The notes beneath the pieces were generated by a model. The model was not told the origin of the DNA. It saw only the letters and a list, made by a program, of their open reading frames with translations, and did no database searches. The position numbers were made by a program, and so were the translations under genes. 64,000 bases of DNA from Magnetospirillum aberrantis SpK (GTDB lineage: Bacteria; Pseudomonadota; Alphaproteobacteria; Rhodospirillales; Magnetospirillaceae). Below, piece by piece: positions 2,164 through 10,412 of this stretch (the first letter of the stretch is position 1; each line of letters begins with the position of its first letter). Where the stretch lies: contig NZ_JAAIYP010000007.1 in NCBI RefSeq assembly GCF_011022235.1, positions 124,001 through 188,000 on the forward strand, given 5' to 3'.

Positions 2164-2937
2164 ATGGCGTGGTCGTTGTCGCGCAAGGTGTCGGTGGCGT
2201 TGCTGGGCATCTTGCTGTCCACCATGGTGATGACCGGGGCGTTCGGCTATTACAAGTTCCAATCCGTCCTGTCGGATCAGGTCAACTCGCGCTACAGCTT
2301 CGTCGTCTTCACCATCAAGCGCAAGATCGAGGACCGTCTGGCCTTGGGCCTGGCGCTGCGGGCGCTTCGCCAGATCCAGGAACTGGCCGAACTGGAAAAA
2401 GCCCGAGACAGCCAAATTCTTGGCATCCAGATATACGATTCCAACCGCGAGGTGCTGTTCGACACCGACCGCGGCACCATCGGCTCACGGGTGCCATCCA
2501 CTTGGCTGGAACCGCTGTCGGCGCAGGGCACGCAACCCTTTTCACTGACCGACGAGGATTCGGCCCTGGTGGGGCTGCCGCTGGTCAACACCTTGGGCAA
2601 GGTCGAGGGCGCGGTGGTGCTGCGCTATCCCGCCACATACCTCGAACAGGAGTTGGGGCGACTGTTGCAACGTCTGGCCGGAGAATTCGCCGTGGTCTTG
2701 CTGGGCAGCGCGGTCCTGTCCGTGATCGCCGCGTCATGGCTTCTGCGCGACGTCCGCCAGCGCCTGGTCGCCATGGAGAACACCTTGAACCAGAGCGTGA
2801 CCAAAGGGGCGCCCGCCAAACCCGGCCGCGACGCCTTCGAAGGCGACTTCGTGCGTTTTTGCGGCAAGGCGCGCGAGGCGGTGGAGCAAATCGGCGAAGC
2901 CTCGGACGAGGTTGAACGCCTGGACCGGCTGGCGTAG
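2164..2937 (+). CDS. Two-helix membrane protein with a periplasmic sensor-like domain; first gene of a six-gene operon
   Basis: The protein has 257 residues with membrane segments near 8-28 and 174-194. They enclose a periplasmic domain of about 145 residues. Within it, YDSNREVLFDTDRG followed by LVGLPLVNTLGKVEGAVVLRY resembles a single Cache/PAS-like extracellular sensor. The cytoplasmic tail is short and predicted helical (LLRDVRQRLVAMENTLNQ). It has no kinase, GGDEF or chemoreceptor output domain, so it probably passes a signal to a partner. The obvious candidate is the next gene, whose N-terminus has a similar plan. The ATG at 2164 follows a purine-rich GGGGAACTGAAGC. The gap to the next gene is 8 bases. 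I do not recognise a named family. Confidence 0.7.
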   Translation: MAWSLSRKVSVALLGILLSTMVMTGAFGYYKFQSVLSDQVNSRYSFVVFTIKRKIEDRLALGLALRALRQIQELAELEKARDSQILGIQIYDSNREVLFDTDRGTIGSRVPSTWLEPLSAQGTQPFSLTDEDSALVGLPLVNTLGKVEGAVVLRYPATYLEQELGRLLQRLAGEFAVVLLGSAVLSVIAASWLLRDVRQRLVAMENTLNQSVTKGAPAKPGRDAFEGDFVRFCGKAREAVEQIGEASDEVERLDRLA

Positions 2938-2945
2938 AGGACATC

Positions 2946-5048
2946 ATGAAGCTCGACAGCTCGCGTTCCCTGCTGATCCGCCTGTTCGCCCTGGCCGTCC
3001 TGGTGCTGGTGACGCCGCTCTCCATCCTGTCCCTGCGCGCCTTGGGCGAATTCGAACAGGGCATGGTCCCGGAACTGGACAAGAAAGCGGCGGCCATCGG
3101 CCGCGACGTCGCCGGACAGGTGTCCCGCGCGCTCGGCTACGGCATTCCGGTGGACCGGCTGGTCGGCGTGGACGAATTCTTTTCGCCCATGCTGGAAGCC
3201 AATCCCGAGATTCGCTATCTGGCCATCACCGACCCGGTCGGCCGCGTCAAATTCATCAACGGCGTCGACCGGGACGAACTGGAGCCCCATTACCGTTCGG
3301 CCGACATGAACGCCGTCGGCGCCGACGGCGTCAAATCATCCATCGGCGCCTATATGGATCTGGCCTTGCCGCTGACCGCCGGCCAAACCGTCGCCGGCCA
3401 CGTCCATGTCGGCTTCGACCAGAACCATATCGCCACAAGGCTGAGCGACATCCTGGCCGATGTGGCGGTGGTGATCGTCTCTTCCCTGATCATCGCCTTC
3501 GAAATCCTGTTGTTCGTGGTGTTCGTCAACGTCACCGGCCCGCTCAAGCTGTTGCGTGATCTGGTGAACCGTGCCGGACACGGCGACTTCACCCATGTCC
3601 CGACCAGCGGCTCGGACGACGAGGTCGGGCGCTTCCTGCGGGCTGTCCAGGGAACCTTGCGCCAACTGGACGGCCGTTACCGGCAATTGATGGCCTATGT
3701 GGACGAAGTCCGCAGCGGCCATTTCGACAAGGGCGTGGTGGCCAAGGTCGGCGATGTCGCCGACCGCATCAACTTCCTGTACCGCTTCTCGCCTTCGGGC
3801 AAGCCCGAACCCATGGTCGAGCGCCGTGCCACCGACATTCGGCTGGCACTGTTCCTGTTCGTTTTCGCCGAGGAACTGTCGCGTTCGTTCATGCCGCTGT
3901 TCGCCGGCCGACTGGCGTCGTCGGTACCGAACGTGCCCATCGATCTGGTGATGGCCTTGCCCATCGCATTGTTCATGGCCGCCATCGCCATTGCCAGTCC
4001 GCTTGCCGGACAATTGGCCGAACGGGTCGGCCCGCGCAGATTGTTCCTGATCGGTGCGGTGCCGGCGACCATCGGCTCGCTGATGACCGCCGCGTCGTTC
4101 GGCATGTTCGACCTGATATTGTGGCGGACGCTGACCGGCTTCGGCTACGCCATGGCGACCATGGCCTGCCAAAGCTACATCTCGCACGCGGTGAAATCCG
4201 ACCGCCGGGCCCAGGGATTGGGCGTCTATGTGGCGGCGGTGCTGACCGCCGGCATCGGCGGCAATGCCCTGGGTGGGGTCATCGCCGACCGCATCGGCTT
4301 GCGCCCGACCTTCGTGGTGTCGGCGATCCTGGTCGTGCTGGCCGCCATGCTGGTGTCGCGTCTGTTGTCGTCGGCCGATCCGGCGCCTGGGGAAGACCAG
4401 CCCCGCCCGCCCGGTGGACGGCATCTGCTCAGGCTGTTGCGCAACTGGCGTTTCACTGTGCTGATGGTGTTCGCCGCGGTGCCGGCCAAGATGGCGCTGA
4501 CCGGCTATCTGTTCTTCCTGGTGCCGGTGACCCTGTCGCAACAAGGCTGGGAAGTGGCGGAAATCGCCCGCATCATGGTTCTTTATCCGCTGGTCATGGT
4601 CGCCGTCTCTCCGCTGGCGGCGCGGCTGGCCGACGGCCTGGGATGGCGGGCCGGCCAAGTGGCGGTGGGCGGCCTGATCGGCGGCGTCGGTTTGCTGGCG
4701 CCGTTGCTGCTGGGGGGCGGCCCCTTGTCCATCGTGGTGTCCATCACGGCCTTGGGGGTTTCACACGGTATGTCCGCCTCGCCACAACTGGCCCTTCTGC
4801 CCGACTTGTGCTGGACCGAGTGCCGCCGTCTGGGCAACACCCGCGTACTTGGCTTCTCACGCTTCGTCGAGCGCCTGGGTTCGGTGGCCGGCCCGATCCT
4901 GGCGGCACTGTTCATTCCACTGTGGGGGATGTCGGGGGCGGTGGCCGGATTAGGCGTTGTCGTGCTGTCCATGGCCGTGGTGTTCGCCATCGCCTCGGCC
5001 GCCTACGGCTCGGGTCCTCACATCGAAACCGAGGAGGACCCGGCATGA
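2946..5048 (+). CDS. Fusion of a periplasmic sensor and HAMP region to a 12-helix MFS transporter
   Basis: The protein has 700 residues. Residues 1-30 form a membrane anchor. Residues 31-170 are a periplasmic domain with YLAITDPVGRVKFING, a Cache/PAS-like pattern. A second helix spans about 172-195 and a HAMP-like linker 196-245 (NVTGPLKLLRDLVNRAGHGDF, then DDEVGRFLRAVQ). From about 297 to the end it is a major facilitator transporter with the loop motif GQLAERVGPRR between helices 2 and 3 and with LADGLGWRAG in the second half. A sensor of chemoreceptor or kinase type joined to a transporter is an unusual architecture. One possibility is ligand-gated export or import; another is that the transporter half itself acts as the output. 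An AGAGGA ribosome site precedes the ATG. The stop overlaps the next start in ATGA. Confidence 0.8.
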   Translation: MKLDSSRSLLIRLFALAVLVLVTPLSILSLRALGEFEQGMVPELDKKAAAIGRDVAGQVSRALGYGIPVDRLVGVDEFFSPMLEANPEIRYLAITDPVGRVKFINGVDRDELEPHYRSADMNAVGADGVKSSIGAYMDLALPLTAGQTVAGHVHVGFDQNHIATRLSDILADVAVVIVSSLIIAFEILLFVVFVNVTGPLKLLRDLVNRAGHGDFTHVPTSGSDDEVGRFLRAVQGTLRQLDGRYRQLMAYVDEVRSGHFDKGVVAKVGDVADRINFLYRFSPSGKPEPMVERRATDIRLALFLFVFAEELSRSFMPLFAGRLASSVPNVPIDLVMALPIALFMAAIAIASPLAGQLAERVGPRRLFLIGAVPATIGSLMTAASFGMFDLILWRTLTGFGYAMATMACQSYISHAVKSDRRAQGLGVYVAAVLTAGIGGNALGGVIADRIGLRPTFVVSAILVVLAAMLVSRLLSSADPAPGEDQPRPPGGRHLLRLLRNWRFTVLMVFAAVPAKMALTGYLFFLVPVTLSQQGWEVAEIARIMVLYPLVMVAVSPLAARLADGLGWRAGQVAVGGLIGGVGLLAPLLLGGGPLSIVVSITALGVSHGMSASPQLALLPDLCWTECRRLGNTRVLGFSRFVERLGSVAGPILAALFIPLWGMSGAVAGLGVVVLSMAVVFAIASAAYGSGPHIETEEDPA

Positions 5049-6073
5049 AGCGGCGCCACCTGATCGCCGGGCTGGCGGGACTTGGAATCGGCGCCGCCAA
5101 TCCGGTCCTGGCCCAGCCCCGCCCGCGCTCCGGCGAGAAACCCTTCCGCATCTACATGGCGCTGTTTCGCGGCTGGGAAGATTGCGCCCAGGGGTTCAAG
5201 GATTACTTCGTCAACCAGGGCATCCCGGTCGAGCTGATCGTGCGCGATGCCGGCCAGGATAAAAGCAAGCTTGCCGGCTTCGTCGCCGAAGCCAAGGAAA
5301 TGAAGGTCGACCTTGTGTTCACCTGGGGCACCACGGTCACCCAGGAGATGCTGGGTCCCTGGGACAAGCCGGACCCGGCACGCCACATCACCGACATCCC
5401 GGCGGTGTTCGCCATCGTGTCGCAGCCGGTGGGGGCCAAGGTGGTGCCCGATCTGGTCTCGTCCCGGCGCAACGTCACCGGCACCACCTATCTGGTGCCG
5501 CTCGAGACCCAGATGGCGCTGATCCAGTCCTATCGCCCGTTCTCGGTGCTGGGCATGGTCTACAACCCGCTGGAACCGGCGTCACGCATCACCATCGACG
5601 AGTTGACGGCGCTGGGACGGCAACTGGACTTCCGGCTCGAGGCGGTTCCGGTCGACGTGGCCGACGGCAAGCCGCAGCCAACCTCGATCCCGGCCAAGGT
5701 CGCCGAGGTCAAGGCGGCAGGCGCCCTGTTCCTGTACATCCCGCCCGACACCTTCATCAACGTCAACCGCGACGTGCTGACCGGCGCGGCGCTGGAGGCG
5801 GGGCTTCCCAGCTTCGCCGCCGCCGAGAACCCGGTCGTCAACTCCAAGGCCATGTTCGGTGCGGTCTGCCGTTATTATCCGGTGGGACAACTGACCGCCT
5901 ATAAGGCGGAACAGATTTTGGTGCAAAAGCGCGCCCCCGCCGACATTCCCATCGACGCCCCAAAACGCATGGCGATCATGATCAACATGCCGGTGGTCCG
6001 CGCGCTGGGCTTCTATCCGCCCATGAACCTGTTGGGATTGTCGGAAGTGATCGACCCGGAGAGCCGGCCATGA
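5045..6073 (+). CDS. Secreted substrate-binding protein of the ABC_sub_bind (TrpX-like) type
   Basis: The protein has 342 residues. Its N-terminus MKRRHLIAGLAGLGIGAANPVLA is a signal peptide with twin basic residues. Mature features include LVFTWGTTVTQEMLGP and the NPLEP and YIPPDTFIN segments, typical of the uncharacterised ABC-type substrate-binding family (Pfam ABC_sub_bind). Family members bind small amino-acid-like ligands in the periplasm. No ABC permease or ATPase lies nearby. This suggests the protein delivers its ligand to the sensor domains or to the MFS fusion encoded just upstream; that is inference. The start overlaps the preceding stop (ATGA) and the stop overlaps the next start (ATGA), so the chain is translationally coupled. 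Confidence 0.82.
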   Translation: MKRRHLIAGLAGLGIGAANPVLAQPRPRSGEKPFRIYMALFRGWEDCAQGFKDYFVNQGIPVELIVRDAGQDKSKLAGFVAEAKEMKVDLVFTWGTTVTQEMLGPWDKPDPARHITDIPAVFAIVSQPVGAKVVPDLVSSRRNVTGTTYLVPLETQMALIQSYRPFSVLGMVYNPLEPASRITIDELTALGRQLDFRLEAVPVDVADGKPQPTSIPAKVAEVKAAGALFLYIPPDTFINVNRDVLTGAALEAGLPSFAAAENPVVNSKAMFGAVCRYYPVGQLTAYKAEQILVQKRAPADIPIDAPKRMAIMINMPVVRALGFYPPMNLLGLSEVIDPESRP

Positions 6074-6990
6074 ACATCGTCATCTGCACCAAGCGCGATC
6101 TGGCCGGCGCGCTGGTTCTCAACCACCTGATGCCGCATCTGGCCGAAGACCGGGTCATGGTCCTGTTGTCGGACAAGACCCGGCCGGCGGAAAAGGCCCA
6201 GCCGGAACTGGCCGAAATGAAGTTCCTGGAACGCGAATTGCCGGTCGACGTGCTGTTTCCGCTGATCGACCGGCTTGGCGGAAACGGCGACGCGCCTTTG
6301 GCCACCTTCGCCGGCCTTCAGAAGCGTTACGGCATCTCGTTCCACACCTTGTCCGACATCAACGCCCCCGAGGCGCAGACCCTGCTTGGGGACTTCGCCC
6401 CCGACGTCGTGCTGTCGGTGCGGTTCTCCCTGATCTTCAAGCGCCCGGCCCTGGATATCGCGCGGCTCGGCACCTGGAACGTCCATCCCGGTGCTCTTCC
6501 CCGCTATGCCGGATTGTTCGCGCCATTCCGCGCCCTGGTGGACGGCCAGGATCGCATCGGCTGCACCTTGCACCGCATCGACGATGGCATCGACACCGGC
6601 CCCGTGGCCGGCATCGGCTGGCTGCCGGTCCAGCGGGAGCGTTCCTTGCTGTGGCACGTGGTCAACACCTACGGCCCTGGGCTGGAGCTGTTCTTGTCCA
6701 TGCTGTCCGACATGCGCCGGGACAGGGTGCCGGAACTGTCCGCCCAGGACCGCACGCAACGCCAATACCTGTCCATGCCCGACGCCGCCCAGTTCGCCGC
6801 CTTTCACCAACAGGGGCTGCGCCTGTCCGACCGCGAGGAATACCTGGAGATCGTCGCGGGTTTCCTGGCCCCCGGCCAGACCATGCCGACAGCGGTGCAC
6901 GAAGCGCTCGACGCCGTCGAGGCCGGAACCCTCGGCGCGGCGGCGCCGGTTGAGAAGGTGGGAGCGCCATGCTGCTGCGCACGCGCGTAA
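6070..6990 (+). CDS. Formyltransferase-family enzyme (methionyl-tRNA formyltransferase-like fold)
   Basis: The protein has 306 residues. NVHPGALPRYAGLFAPFRAL followed by CTLHRIDDGIDTGPVAG matches the formyl_transf_N family, including the catalytic Asn-His pair (NVHPG) and the Asp of the IDDGIDTG segment. These enzymes move a formyl group from 10-formyltetrahydrofolate to an amine, for example on Met-tRNA, a sugar nucleotide or glycinamide ribotide. The C-terminal third shows no Fmt tRNA-binding domain that I recognise, so it is probably not the housekeeping Fmt. Its place between a binding protein and a SpoIIE-type phosphatase is odd. It may modify a ligand or a sensed compound. It overlaps the next gene by 22 bases. 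The tail ends in a CCC cluster (GAPCCCARA). Confidence 0.75.
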   Translation: MNIVICTKRDLAGALVLNHLMPHLAEDRVMVLLSDKTRPAEKAQPELAEMKFLERELPVDVLFPLIDRLGGNGDAPLATFAGLQKRYGISFHTLSDINAPEAQTLLGDFAPDVVLSVRFSLIFKRPALDIARLGTWNVHPGALPRYAGLFAPFRALVDGQDRIGCTLHRIDDGIDTGPVAGIGWLPVQRERSLLWHVVNTYGPGLELFLSMLSDMRRDRVPELSAQDRTQRQYLSMPDAAQFAAFHQQGLRLSDREEYLEIVAGFLAPGQTMPTAVHEALDAVEAGTLGAAAPVEKVGAPCCCARA

Positions 6991-9776
6991 CGCTGATCGT
7001 CTCGGCCACCTATTGCCTTTTGGTCGGTGGCTTGCTGTTCGCCGGCATCAAAAGCGAGGAACTGGCCAACGAGCGCTATTCCCAGGCCACCCTCAACGGC
7101 CAGGAAATCTTCTGGCGCAAGCTGGTGGAAAATTCCGTCCAGCGGCTGGAGACCGACGCCAACACCGTCGCCTCAGACAGCCATCTGGTGCAGGCGGTGG
7201 AAAAGGGCGACCCGACCACCGTGCTGGCGGCGGTGGCCCCGGTCGCCGACGCCTTGCGCGCCCGCGGCACGGTCGCCCGCTTCGAGGTGATGAACCGCGA
7301 CGGCCTGTTGCTCTATTCCACCCGCTCGTTGCTGGAATCGGCCTCGATCGATGTCGGCACTGTGCGCGGCATCGTCGAAAGCCGCCAGGCGGTTCGCGGC
7401 GTCATCCAGGATGCCAACCGGACCTTTTCCGCCACCCTGGCCTTCCCGCTGACCTCGGACAAGGGGGTCGTCGGAATCGCCGTGCTGGCCGCGGATTTGC
7501 GGCCGCCGCTGAACGAATTCAAGGCATCCACCGGTTCCGACATCTTCATGGTCGATCATTCCGGCGTCATGGCCATGGGCACCGACGACACGCTGTGGCA
7601 GCACTTCGTCGGCAACATCTCGGCCCGCAAGAGCCGGATGGAAACCCGCGAGGAAGGCGGGCGCTTCTATTCCGTGGTGGTGCTGCCGCTGCATGACGGT
7701 GTCGGACGGGTGATCGGCGCCTTGGTCACCGCGCGCGACTTCACCGAGACGCAAAGCCGCCAGAACCTGATCCGCAAGGTGTCGGTCGGCACCGTGGCGG
7801 GCTTTCTGGTCCTGGTTCTGGCGCTGTTCACCATCTATTTGCGGCGGTCGTTCAATCCGCTGAACGAGGCTATCGCCGTGCTGAACGCCCTGTCGCGCGG
7901 CGACACCACGGTGGCGCTCGAGGTCAGGAACGAACAAGACGAAATCGGCCGCATCGCCGGCACGGTCGGCGTGTTCCGGGAAAACGCCATCGCCCTCGAC
8001 ATGATGCAGCAACGGCGCGAGCGCCAGCGCCGTCGCCAGGAATTGTTCATCCGCATGCAGATGCAAAGCCTGTCGGGCATGCTGGACGAAGAGGCCCGCG
8101 CCGCCGTTCTGGCCGACCTGAAACAGATCGAGGAATTGTCCAACCGCAAGCTGTCCGCCGATGGCGAGGTCCAAGACAGCGGCAAGGGCGAGTTGGAGGT
8201 GCTGGGCGTCGCCTTCCAGACCATGTCCGACCGCATCCGCGAACAGCACCAAAGCCTGGAAGCGCTGATCGCCGAACGCACCCGCGACGTCGAGGTTCTG
8301 CGCGAAGCCTTGCACAACCGCGATCAGTTGGCGGCGTTGCGCCAGGAATTGGACTTCGCCCGCGAACTGCAATTGTCGTCGCTGCCCCAGGTGTTCCCGC
8401 CCTTCCCCGACCGCGACGAGTTCCAGATTCACGCCTCGATGGTGCCGGCCAAGGAAGTGGGCGGCGATTTCTACGACTTCTTCCTGATCGACCGCCATCA
8501 TCTGGGCTTCGTCATCGGCGACGCCTCGGGCAAGGGCGTGCCGGCCGCCATGTTCATCGCCATCACCCGTTCGCTGATCAAGGCGGTGGCGCCGCTGTCC
8601 TCGACCCCCGGCGAGTGCCTGGCCTTCGTCAACACCATGCTGGCGGCCGACAATCCCCAGACGCTGTTCGCCACCTGCTTCTATGCCGTGCTTGACGTGC
8701 GCAACGGCGAGGTGGCGTTCTGCAACGCGGGCCATCCGCCGCCGCTGATCCTGCGGGCGGGAACCGGTGTGGTCGACGCCATTCGCGACGTATCGGGCGT
8801 GGCCCTGGGCGTGATGGAGGACCTGGACTACGAAACAGGCAGCTTCCAACTGGCGTCCGGCGACATGGTCGTGCTTTACACCGACGGCGTCACCGAAGCC
8901 CAGGACGTGGCCGAAGCGCTGTACGAAGAATACCGCCTGATCGACAAGGTGGCGACGTTGGGAGGACGCGAACCGTCCGAGGTGATCACCGATGTCGAAA
9001 CGGCCGTGGCCGCCTTTGTCGGCGACGCCCCGCAATTCGACGACATCACCATGCTGACCCTGCGCTTCGACCGCCCGTCCGAGGACAAAGGCGAAGAGAG
9101 CGAACCCCAACGCCGCTTGCGCCTGACCGGATTCCAGCCGGTGCCGGAAACGGTCGCCCCCCCGGCGCCTCAGCCCGCCACGGCGCCTGCCGCCCCAGCC
9201 CCCGCCCCCGCCAAGGCGGCGCCCAAGCCGCTGGTCATCCAGTTGGGGCCGATCCGCTCCAAGATGAAGCCGACGCCGGCCCCTGTCGAACAACCGTCGG
9301 CCCCGCCGGAGGAACAGCCCCACCCCACCACCCCTGCCGTCCCCGAGACGACCGCGCCCGCACATCCCCATCTGGACATCACCATCGGCAACGACCTGGA
9401 CGAGTTGGGCCGTCTTGCCGTCATGGTCGATGACTTCGTCGAAAAGAACGGCCTGCCCGAACGTATCGCCTTCAACTTGAACCTGTGTCTGGACGAGTTG
9501 ATCACCAACATCGTGTCGTACGGCTACGACGACGACAGCCGGCACGAAATCAACCTGCGGCTGGCGGTCGAGAACAATGTGCTGAGTTGCCGGATCGAGG
9601 ACGACGCCAAGGAATACAACCCCTTCATCGAGGCCCCGGAACCCGACCTGGAGCTCGACGTCGACGACCGTCCCATCGGCGGGCTGGGGGTGTTCCTGGT
9701 CAAGGAATTCATGGACCGCACCGAGTATCGTCGGGACGGAAACCACAACGTGATCACGCTGTGGAAGAACACGTAG
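6969..9776 (+). CDS. Membrane SpoIIE-type protein phosphatase fused to an anti-sigma-type (HATPase) kinase domain
   Basis: The protein has 935 residues. Membrane helices near 7-26 and 272-290 flank a large periplasmic Cache-like sensor (FEVMNRDGLLLYSTRS, DIFMVDHSGVM). A HAMP domain follows at about 291-345 and then a coiled coil. A PP2C/SpoIIE phosphatase spans about 470-705, with metal-binding aspartates in VGGDFYDFF, GDASGKGVPAAMF, YTDGVTEA and DDITML. A Pro/Ala-rich linker of about 90 residues leads to an HATPase_c_2 domain from about 799, with N-box LCLDELITNIVSYGY and G-box GGLGVFLVKEF. Such proteins dephosphorylate, and RsbW-type kinases phosphorylate, a STAS antagonist to free a sigma factor or other partner. 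The next gene encodes a STAS protein, so both activities and the substrate are encoded together. Confidence 0.9.
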   Translation: MLLRTRVTLIVSATYCLLVGGLLFAGIKSEELANERYSQATLNGQEIFWRKLVENSVQRLETDANTVASDSHLVQAVEKGDPTTVLAAVAPVADALRARGTVARFEVMNRDGLLLYSTRSLLESASIDVGTVRGIVESRQAVRGVIQDANRTFSATLAFPLTSDKGVVGIAVLAADLRPPLNEFKASTGSDIFMVDHSGVMAMGTDDTLWQHFVGNISARKSRMETREEGGRFYSVVVLPLHDGVGRVIGALVTARDFTETQSRQNLIRKVSVGTVAGFLVLVLALFTIYLRRSFNPLNEAIAVLNALSRGDTTVALEVRNEQDEIGRIAGTVGVFRENAIALDMMQQRRERQRRRQELFIRMQMQSLSGMLDEEARAAVLADLKQIEELSNRKLSADGEVQDSGKGELEVLGVAFQTMSDRIREQHQSLEALIAERTRDVEVLREALHNRDQLAALRQELDFARELQLSSLPQVFPPFPDRDEFQIHASMVPAKEVGGDFYDFFLIDRHHLGFVIGDASGKGVPAAMFIAITRSLIKAVAPLSSTPGECLAFVNTMLAADNPQTLFATCFYAVLDVRNGEVAFCNAGHPPPLILRAGTGVVDAIRDVSGVALGVMEDLDYETGSFQLASGDMVVLYTDGVTEAQDVAEALYEEYRLIDKVATLGGREPSEVITDVETAVAAFVGDAPQFDDITMLTLRFDRPSEDKGEESEPQRRLRLTGFQPVPETVAPPAPQPATAPAAPAPAPAKAAPKPLVIQLGPIRSKMKPTPAPVEQPSAPPEEQPHPTTPAVPETTAPAHPHLDITIGNDLDELGRLAVMVDDFVEKNGLPERIAFNLNLCLDELITNIVSYGYDDDSRHEINLRLAVENNVLSCRIEDDAKEYNPFIEAPEPDLELDVDDRPIGGLGVFLVKEFMDRTEYRRDGNHNVITLWKNT

Positions 9777-9838
9777 TTTAAAGGTATCTCTTAAGTCCGC
9801 CCAGGATGGACGGATGGCGTAACAGGAGCTTTGAAGTT

Positions 9839-10165
9839 ATGGAGATCAAGCTAGAGACCTTTGGCGAGGCGACCGTGGTGATCCCGGTGGCCCGCGTGGA
9901 CAGCGCAACCGCCAAGGCCTTCGAAGCCAAGGTTTTGCAGGTGGTCAACGCCGGTGGCCCGCGGGTCATCCTGGATTTTTCCGAACTGGATTACATTTCC
10001 AGCGCCGGGCTGCGCGTGGTGCTGGTTGGTGCCAAGATGACCCGCGCCCCGCGCAAGTTCGTGCTATGCGGCATGAAGCCGCACATCCGCGAGGTCTTCG
10101 ACGTGTCCGGTTTCGCCAAGATCCTGTCCATTCAGCCCGACCGCGCCACCGCCGCCGCGATCTGA
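9839..10165 (+). CDS. STAS-domain anti-sigma factor antagonist (RsbV/SpoIIAA-like)
   Basis: The protein has 108 residues forming one STAS domain. The phosphorylatable serine lies in LDYISSAGLRVVLVGAKM, the standard motif of anti-anti-sigma factors. By family knowledge it is phosphorylated by an HATPase_c_2 kinase and dephosphorylated by a SpoIIE-type PP2C; both domains are in the preceding gene. I chose the ATG at 9839 because CAGGAG ends 10 bases upstream. It lies 62 bases after the phosphatase and is probably the last gene of the operon, since a strong hairpin follows. No sigma factor gene is nearby, so the final target is unknown. Confidence 0.9.
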   Translation: MEIKLETFGEATVVIPVARVDSATAKAFEAKVLQVVNAGGPRVILDFSELDYISSAGLRVVLVGAKMTRAPRKFVLCGMKPHIREVFDVSGFAKILSIQPDRATAAAI

Positions 10166-10221: not shown

Positions 10222-10412
10222 TTCCCGTTACGGATGCGCACAGGATGCGCACACCACTCTTCATCGATGCATGAACACCGCGAGCACCTTGCCCATCCGC
10301 CCGCCCCGCCCGGCGATGCCAGCCCCGCGAGGGCAGCCATTTACAGGCAACGGACGGTATGGAATCATGTGATCAAGATACACTCCCGCCCCATGTGAAA
10401 GCCGCCCCCATC

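Follow-up and report, generated by a model that had tools for sequence, protein, structure and literature searches.

The window analyzed here, a stretch of 64,000 nucleotides from Magnetospirillum aberrantis SpK (contig NZ_JAAIYP010000007.1, positions 124,001 to 188,000; assembly of 4.15 Mb in 48 contigs), carries at positions 2164-10165 an operon of six genes, all on the forward strand, which combines sensors, an exporter-like fusion, a binding protein, a formyltransferase, and partner-switching proteins. The operon is one case of a wider system, in which a constant core, comprising a Cache-like sensor, a fusion of Cache, HAMP, and major facilitator superfamily (MFS) parts, and a binding protein of the ABC_sub_bind family, is accompanied by an exchangeable enzyme. 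The six genes are as follows:

2164..2937, forward strand: gene 1 (P0001, 257 aa), Cache-like membrane sensor with a transmembrane segment, a predicted periplasmic domain, a second transmembrane segment, and a short cytoplasmic tail
2946..5048, forward strand: gene 2 (P0002, 700 aa), sensor-exporter fusion with a transmembrane segment, a single Cache-like domain, a transmembrane segment, a HAMP-like part, and an MFS part
5045..6073, forward strand: gene 3 (P0003, 342 aa), periplasmic binding protein of the ABC_sub_bind family
6070..6990, forward strand: gene 4 (P0004, 306 aa), 10-formyltetrahydrofolate-type formyltransferase, the exchangeable enzyme
6969..9776, forward strand: gene 5 (P0005, 935 aa), double-Cache, HAMP, SpoIIE phosphatase, and HATPase_c_2 kinase domains
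9839..10165, forward strand: gene 6 (P0006, 108 aa), STAS protein, presumed phospho-target

A preliminary description, made from the letters of the stretch, had reported this operon, and it is confirmed by the open reading frames of the window together with all its junctions: gaps of 8 bp between genes 1 and 2 and of 62 bp between genes 5 and 6, ATGA overlaps of 4 bp at the 2-3 and 3-4 junctions, and a 22-bp overlap between genes 4 and 5. The six protein types named there are right, with two amendments. Gene 5 has its own double-Cache and HAMP domains, which brings the predicted periplasmic sensors that accompany the binding protein to three, and the STAS gene probably starts at 9839 rather than at the first in-frame ATG at 9806, since homologs from close loci are 107-112 aa long. 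Between 1900 and 10500 a single sigma-70-like site was found, at 10340, 3' of gene 6; as shuffled sequences gave a mean of 1.1, internal promoters are neither shown nor excluded. The arrangement is not due to chance, because the six-gene order is present in 20 of 31 related loci, as detailed below.

The first two proteins are membrane sensors of different build. P0001 matches dCache_1 with 20.8 bits (E 3e-4) and is called only Cache-like because this score lies below the Pfam cut-off of 45; its hydrophobic segments span residues 9-27 and 176-194. P0002 exceeds the cut-offs for MFS_1 (122.5 bits, E 2.5e-35) and Sugar_tr (26.0), and its sCache_3_2 (23.0 against 28.4) and HAMP (17.8 against 25) matches are below theirs. 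When a profile of the MFS half, built from 31 homologs, was compared with the PDB sequences, 27 of 27 matches at E ≤ 1e-9 were of exporter types, including VMAT, NorA, and EmrB, and the MFS half thus seems to resemble exporters more than importers. It shares its MFS sequence family with these drug-proton antiporters, from which P0002 differs by the addition of an N-terminal Cache-like sensor and a HAMP-like linker.

P0003 belongs to ABC_sub_bind (PF04392; 73 bits, E 3e-20), and its PDB matches (6hni, 3lkv, and 3lft) contain Tyr, Phe, and Trp as ligands. It shares its Pfam family with the amino-acid-binding proteins CD0873 and TrpX, whose Glu263 and Tyr279 (PMC6816091) correspond to E261 and Y277 of P0003; the E261 position is acidic in 36/37 aligned homologs. 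P0003 differs from these proteins in being paired with an MFS fusion instead of an ABC importer and in its score for the TrpX equivalog of NCBIfam (77.9 bits), which is far under the cut-off of 390. As judged by open reading frames and Pfam, the permease and ATPase genes that accompany the binding protein in a TrpX-type tryptophan/tyrosine uptake system were not found among the six genes.

These data bear on the order of events proposed in the preliminary description, namely that a periplasmic ligand is bound, sensed, and transported, and then formylated. According to that proposal, the binding protein and the MFS half would import the ligand, and the switch formed by genes 5 and 6 would report its availability. 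The Sugar_tr match agrees with import, against which stand the uniformly exporter-type matches of the MFS profile and the missing ABC permease and ATPase. We consider uptake improbable and its direction probably wrong, and we favor a circuit in which a small molecule is made, exported, and then sensed, because the MFS half best matches exporters.

P0004 matches Formyl_trans_N (59.9 bits), keeps the Asn-His-Asp catalytic triad found in 23/23 aligned formyltransferases, and is predicted to adopt the fold of the 10-formyltetrahydrofolate formyltransferase superfamily, with ArnA and sugar N-formyltransferases among its neighbors in fold. It falls short of the cut-offs of the named equivalogs in NCBIfam, namely fmt (41.3/201.5 bits), PurN (39.5/150.1), ArnA (45.2/777), and PRK06988 (50.8/316). 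The Cys-Cys-Cys end of P0004 was considered as a metal or lipid site, but this reading was rejected: the three residues probably arise from the 22 bp that gene 4 shares with gene 5, since the copy in genome G016, with no SpoIIE gene behind it, does not have them. Locus L044 has a SpoIIE gene yet lacks the Cys-Cys-Cys end as well, and the formyltransferase frame ends earlier there.

Outside the window, the formyltransferase subfamily is almost confined to loci with the MFS/binding-protein core. Its profile found 26/297 genomes of the order sample (E ≤ 1e-30), 24 of them with the gene in a core locus, plus G460 and G016. In the class sample 3/289 genomes had the gene (E ≤ 1e-25), which are the window's own, G218, and G335, the latter two also with the gene in a core locus. 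Altogether, in 27 of 28 genomes the gene lies beside an MFS/binding-protein pair, G016 alone departing from this. Its position varies: in the family it stands between the binding-protein and SpoIIE genes, in L091 before the sensor gene, and in L097 after the SpoIIE gene on the other strand. In G460 (L155:1-9550) it lies between a pair of the core kinds, including an MFS protein of 760 aa in which no Cache or HAMP family was detected at E ≤ 0.001, and genes for a nonribosomal peptide synthetase (NRPS; condensation, adenylation, and carrier domains) and for an acyl starter (E1 dehydrogenase, lipoyl, and KAS III domains in the neighboring chain). This region looks like an uncharacterized natural-product cluster, and its neighborhood supports a role in biosynthesis.

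The last two genes encode the parts of a partner-switching module. P0005 matches SpoIIE (PF07228) with 166 bits, HATPase_c_2 (PF13581) with 83.9 bits, over the cut-off, HAMP with 40, and dCache_3 with 31. It contains GGDFYD at 498, GDASGKG at 517, and FDDITM at 690, which we take to be metal-binding motifs of the PP2C type, and the kinase motifs are present as well. Its PDB matches are SpoIIE-type phosphatases and the kinase RsbW (6m36, E 5e-4). P0006 is assigned to STAS (54 bits, E 1e-14) and to TIGR00377 (60.7 bits, over the cut-off of 53.45), and its S54 and S55 are invariant in 42/42 aligned proteins of 80-170 aa. A SpoIIE phosphatase domain, an RsbW-like kinase domain, and a conserved STAS serine are thus present, as expected of an RsbU/RsbW/RsbV-type module, and the partner-switching role proposed earlier for these genes is supported insofar as the phosphatase, kinase, and STAS-serine residues are intact. 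No gene for a sigma factor or other partner of the STAS protein was found among the six. As a separate observation, a conserved protein of ~77 aa is encoded next to STAS at loci from the family (e.g., L143:13891-14121 and L144:3979-4209); it forms a cluster of 10, and the two sequences inspected both end in FDIDPERDV.

The joining of a SpoIIE domain and an RsbW-like kinase in one polypeptide is also seen in Rv1364c (3ke6, a PDB match of P0005) and SypE. Gene 5 differs from both in its membrane double-Cache input, the separate STAS protein, and its setting in an exporter operon. The module also resembles SiaABCD of Pseudomonas in having a SpoIIE-type phosphatase and a HATPase kinase for a STAS protein, here their presumed target; according to PMC9239204, SiaABCD consists of the phosphatase SiaA, the kinase SiaB, the STAS protein SiaC, and the cyclase SiaD. 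In contrast to SiaABCD, the phosphatase and kinase form one chain here, an exporter fusion, a binding protein, and a formyltransferase are added, and no cyclase is found among the six genes, none of which encodes a GGDEF protein. The score for the SiaA equivalog is 67 bits against a cut-off of 700.

In a set of 61 genomes, made up of 60 relatives plus the one that contains the window, a close formyltransferase homolog (at least 47% identity) occurs in 20: every one of the 13 genomes of the genus and 7 from elsewhere in the family; six of these loci are named, three as Magnetospirillum sp., two as Rhodospirillales/Rhodospirillaceae, and one as an assembly called Stygiobacter. Gene order was compared in 31 related loci, comprising 19 from relatives, 11 from further genomes of one genus (g7), and a second contig of G012; L063, the twentieth stretch fetched, was rejected as not orthologous. 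The complete set, collinear and on one strand, occurs in 20 loci, and six more have the other five genes without the formyltransferase. The remainder comprises two loci cut by the contig end before the STAS gene, the two halves of G012, and L061 (G016), where a lone formyltransferase gene adjoins murI and where the genome gave no binding-protein match. In L153:9828-10452 (G566, one of the 20) the formyltransferase gene is split into two frames, and the six loci without it belong to the genus of G566. The order is kept across the genus and in four further genera of its family; a lack of conservation outside this strain, which the preliminary description had named as a refutation, was thus not observed, and the claim that the six genes work as a set stands insofar as they form one conserved unit. 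The formyltransferase, listed earlier within the set, is not a fixed member of it: it is absent from six loci that keep the other five genes, and other enzymes take its place elsewhere. As a side observation, murI (glutamate racemase) of the window, at 1061-2008 on the reverse strand, has a normal start and an apparent frame exit near a run of ten C at ~1350; its homolog in L061 reads through, and the frame exit may be a sequencing or assembly slip.

The Cache-MFS fusion reaches well beyond the family. Matches were found in 21/289 genomes of the class sample (E ≤ 1e-25), 52/297 of the order sample (E ≤ 1e-60), 8/398 of the phylum sample (E ≤ 1e-50), and 12/72,556 plasmid records (11 from Azospirillum and one from Vibrio). 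Besides the window, 20 of 23 places of the class sample were fetched (G207 and G253 were left out), as were six of the 12 plasmid records, two of which (L114 and L115) hold the MFS match without the core. Among 53 loci outside the formyltransferase clade, 43 were complete; L092, L103, L123, L125, and L133 are cut near a contig end, and L075, L106, L114, L115, and L134 have no binding protein close to the MFS match. Counted among the complete loci are L104, which comes from the same genome as the window, and the near-copies L094/L096 and L111/L116. An extra Cache-like sensor lies no more than 4 kb from the binding protein in 39/43 of the complete loci, and one of eight enzyme types (two GNAT families, a PanB-like enzyme, two ATP-grasp enzymes, an alanine racemase-like enzyme, a GCS2-like enzyme, and the formyltransferase) within 4.5 kb in 31/43; generic SyrD-like ABC matches were not counted. 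The phosphatase/STAS output, presented earlier as part of the design, is not universal, with SpoIIE found within 10 kb in 21/43 and STAS in 13/43. L104 (G000 contig 38, 1-19000) is a second core; it has SpoIIE and STAS genes of its own but lacks a formyltransferase. By eye, its order is Cache-MFS, binding protein, Cache-like pieces, SpoIIE, then thioredoxin-like, pentapeptide-repeat-like, and Crp-like genes; a SpoIIE-HATPase gene and a STAS gene lie on the other side.

The enzymes at these loci differ in kind. GNAT family A gave at most a sub-cut-off Pfam match in the four members tried and is GNAT-like by profile (best E 1e-4); it occurs as a single copy, at the core, in each of the 17 labeled genomes from which the profile was built, and in 1/33 other genomes searched (G059), with none in the 16 of these 33 that lack the core. 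The G059 copy, on another contig, was expected to mark a second core and is not beside one. The second GNAT family is an ordinary GNAT. One ATP-grasp type matches dapdiamide A synthase (E 2e-56, 191 of 840 bits). A pyridoxal phosphate enzyme outside the eight types reaches 264 of 276 bits for the diaminopropionate ammonia-lyase model; its gene, together with an ABC transporter gene, follows the core in L135, L137, and L138, all from one genus, and it also occurs in L126 and L130. The synthase-like ATP-grasp and the ammonia-lyase-like enzyme point to amino-acid-derived products. Separately, one frame at L126:2949-4976 (reverse strand) fuses a PALP domain of the diaminopropionate ammonia-lyase-like kind with the greater part of an IS66 transposase domain.

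Such enzymes may be read in another way. GNAT and formyl caps commonly detoxify amines, and the sensors might respond to an amine or amino-acid analog from outside or inside the cell; the enzyme would cap its amine and so inactivate it, the MFS half would expel it, and the SpoIIE/STAS switch would trigger a stress response. The weak PDB matches of GNAT family A to phosphinothricin (E 2e-4), nourseothricin (0.02), and puromycin (0.08) acetyltransferases suit such disposal, as do NorA and EmrB among the MFS matches and the ammonia-lyase-like gene, whose product would be degradative. Disposal does not need a dedicated amino-acid-type binding protein, however; the NRPS genes beside the G460 formyltransferase build rather than destroy, and the PanB-like and ATP-grasp enzymes are builders of molecules. 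We regard disposal as a plausible alternative, though less likely than the circuit favored above.

The exchange of enzymes was followed on a quick tree (LG+G4) of 71 binding proteins, from which L103, L105, L107, L123, L125, L132, and L154 were left out as short, distant, or split. Enzyme type changes 10 times on this tree, compared with a mean of 37.5 after shuffling. Inheritance of whole cassettes can by itself cause such clustering, and we therefore rely solely on the entry of the formyltransferase into separate lineages: its label changes five times, four of these changes being required by supported branches. L091, L097, and L155 lie apart from the Magnetospirillum clade; L155 has a branch length of 3.29, and an earlier tree gave a long-branch warning for L097. 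We read this as repeated recruitment of the formyltransferase to core loci, a pattern that old presence followed by losses could mimic.

Type VI secretion genes accompany some cores, namely 7/43 complete ones outside the clade. Five of these loci lie outside the class (L113, L139, L140, L141, and L142, from Vibrio sp. THAF190c and four genomes), with the core in or beside a type VI cluster. According to Pfam, L095 carries Hcp, VgrG-type, and Clp ATPase proteins and L113 VgrG-type and TssA-type proteins; VipB was found in L139-L142 (ten proteins checked), and in L141 VasE, TssF, TssJ-type, and FHA proteins flank the core on both sides. The label of L105 rests on similarity to L095 only, and two reference labels, T6_a and T6_b, were dropped as they correspond to an HD-domain protein and a histidine kinase. 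These loci would suit control of the envelope or of secretion, in which the enzyme would formylate a peptidoglycan precursor or an amino sugar of the cell surface, the module tying envelope state to type VI secretion or surface change; the ArnA and sugar N-formyltransferase neighbors in fold and the racemase and ligase genes nearby, which fit peptidoglycan precursors, would agree with it. However, none of the six genes is a sugar-nucleotide gene, and the window's own genome has no TssC, for which reason type VI secretion was rejected there as the module's general purpose. The genome-level association is weak (6/21 core genomes against 45/268 others in the class sample, Fisher p 0.23), and we give envelope control only a slim chance. 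Anti-phage defense was likewise rejected, as PADLOC matched none of the six proteins.

We return to the proposed circuit of synthesis, export, and sensing of a small molecule, which we hold, tentatively and at somewhat less than even confidence, to be the best explanation. An exporter family, a binding protein of amino-acid type with solved relatives containing amino acids, multiple sensors, and an interchangeable enzyme that modifies amines or amino acids fit it together, and in gene content the linkage of a synthase-like enzyme, an exporter-type MFS, and a periplasmic receptor would suit a possible autoinducer system. In such a circuit, the cytoplasmic formyltransferase would formylate the amine of a small amino-acid-like compound, and the MFS half of gene 2 would export the product, its activity being set by the fused Cache and HAMP parts. 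We infer that the ligand is this product, which the gene 3 protein would capture outside the membrane and present to the Cache sensors encoded by genes 1, 2, and 5. Gene 5 would then shift its kinase/phosphatase balance and thereby determine how far the STAS protein, which would bind a partner, is phosphorylated at Ser54/55. At other loci the same core would work with a GNAT, PanB-like, or ATP-grasp enzyme, sometimes with type VI secretion replacing the output. Several points weigh against this explanation: the enzyme has been lost in one genus, cores without any recognized enzyme exist, the enzymes may plausibly inactivate an amine that the MFS half expels, and importer-type and hydrolase-fold matches slightly lower our confidence.

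LuxPQ-type sensing combines a periplasmic binding protein with a membrane sensor that it feeds, a likeness of logic to the present operon, which differs in having partner switching instead of a histidine kinase as output and in including an exporter and a putative synthase. The preliminary description had recognized no described system of this composition, and we found none in the literature searched, which is weak evidence of novelty, as most subscription journals lay outside its coverage. A survey of Cache domains does not contain the words MFS and transporter in its main text (PMC4822843). PMC9239204 treats SpoIIE/HATPase/STAS sets in addition to SiaABCD, as well as Pkinase-type kinases inside Arcobacter type VI loci, and does not contain the word MFS.

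It is conceivable, though doubtful at present, that the operon represents a large undescribed class of self-signaling modules, mainly in Alphaproteobacteria and reaching Vibrio, in which the Cache-HAMP-MFS fusion serves as both exporter and sensor alongside a dedicated binding protein, and in which the extracellular level of the product of the plugged-in enzyme, made by formyl, acetyl, one-carbon, or peptide-bond chemistry, is read out to partner switching or type VI secretion. If true, one sensor-exporter platform fitted with different synthases and outputs would amount to a novel way of organizing chemical communication in bacteria and open signals in Magnetospirillum and Azospirillum to genetic study. 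Should the molecule prove to be no signal, the widely conserved Cache-HAMP-MFS fusion still offers a testable case of a transporter under an extracellular sensor of the same chain.

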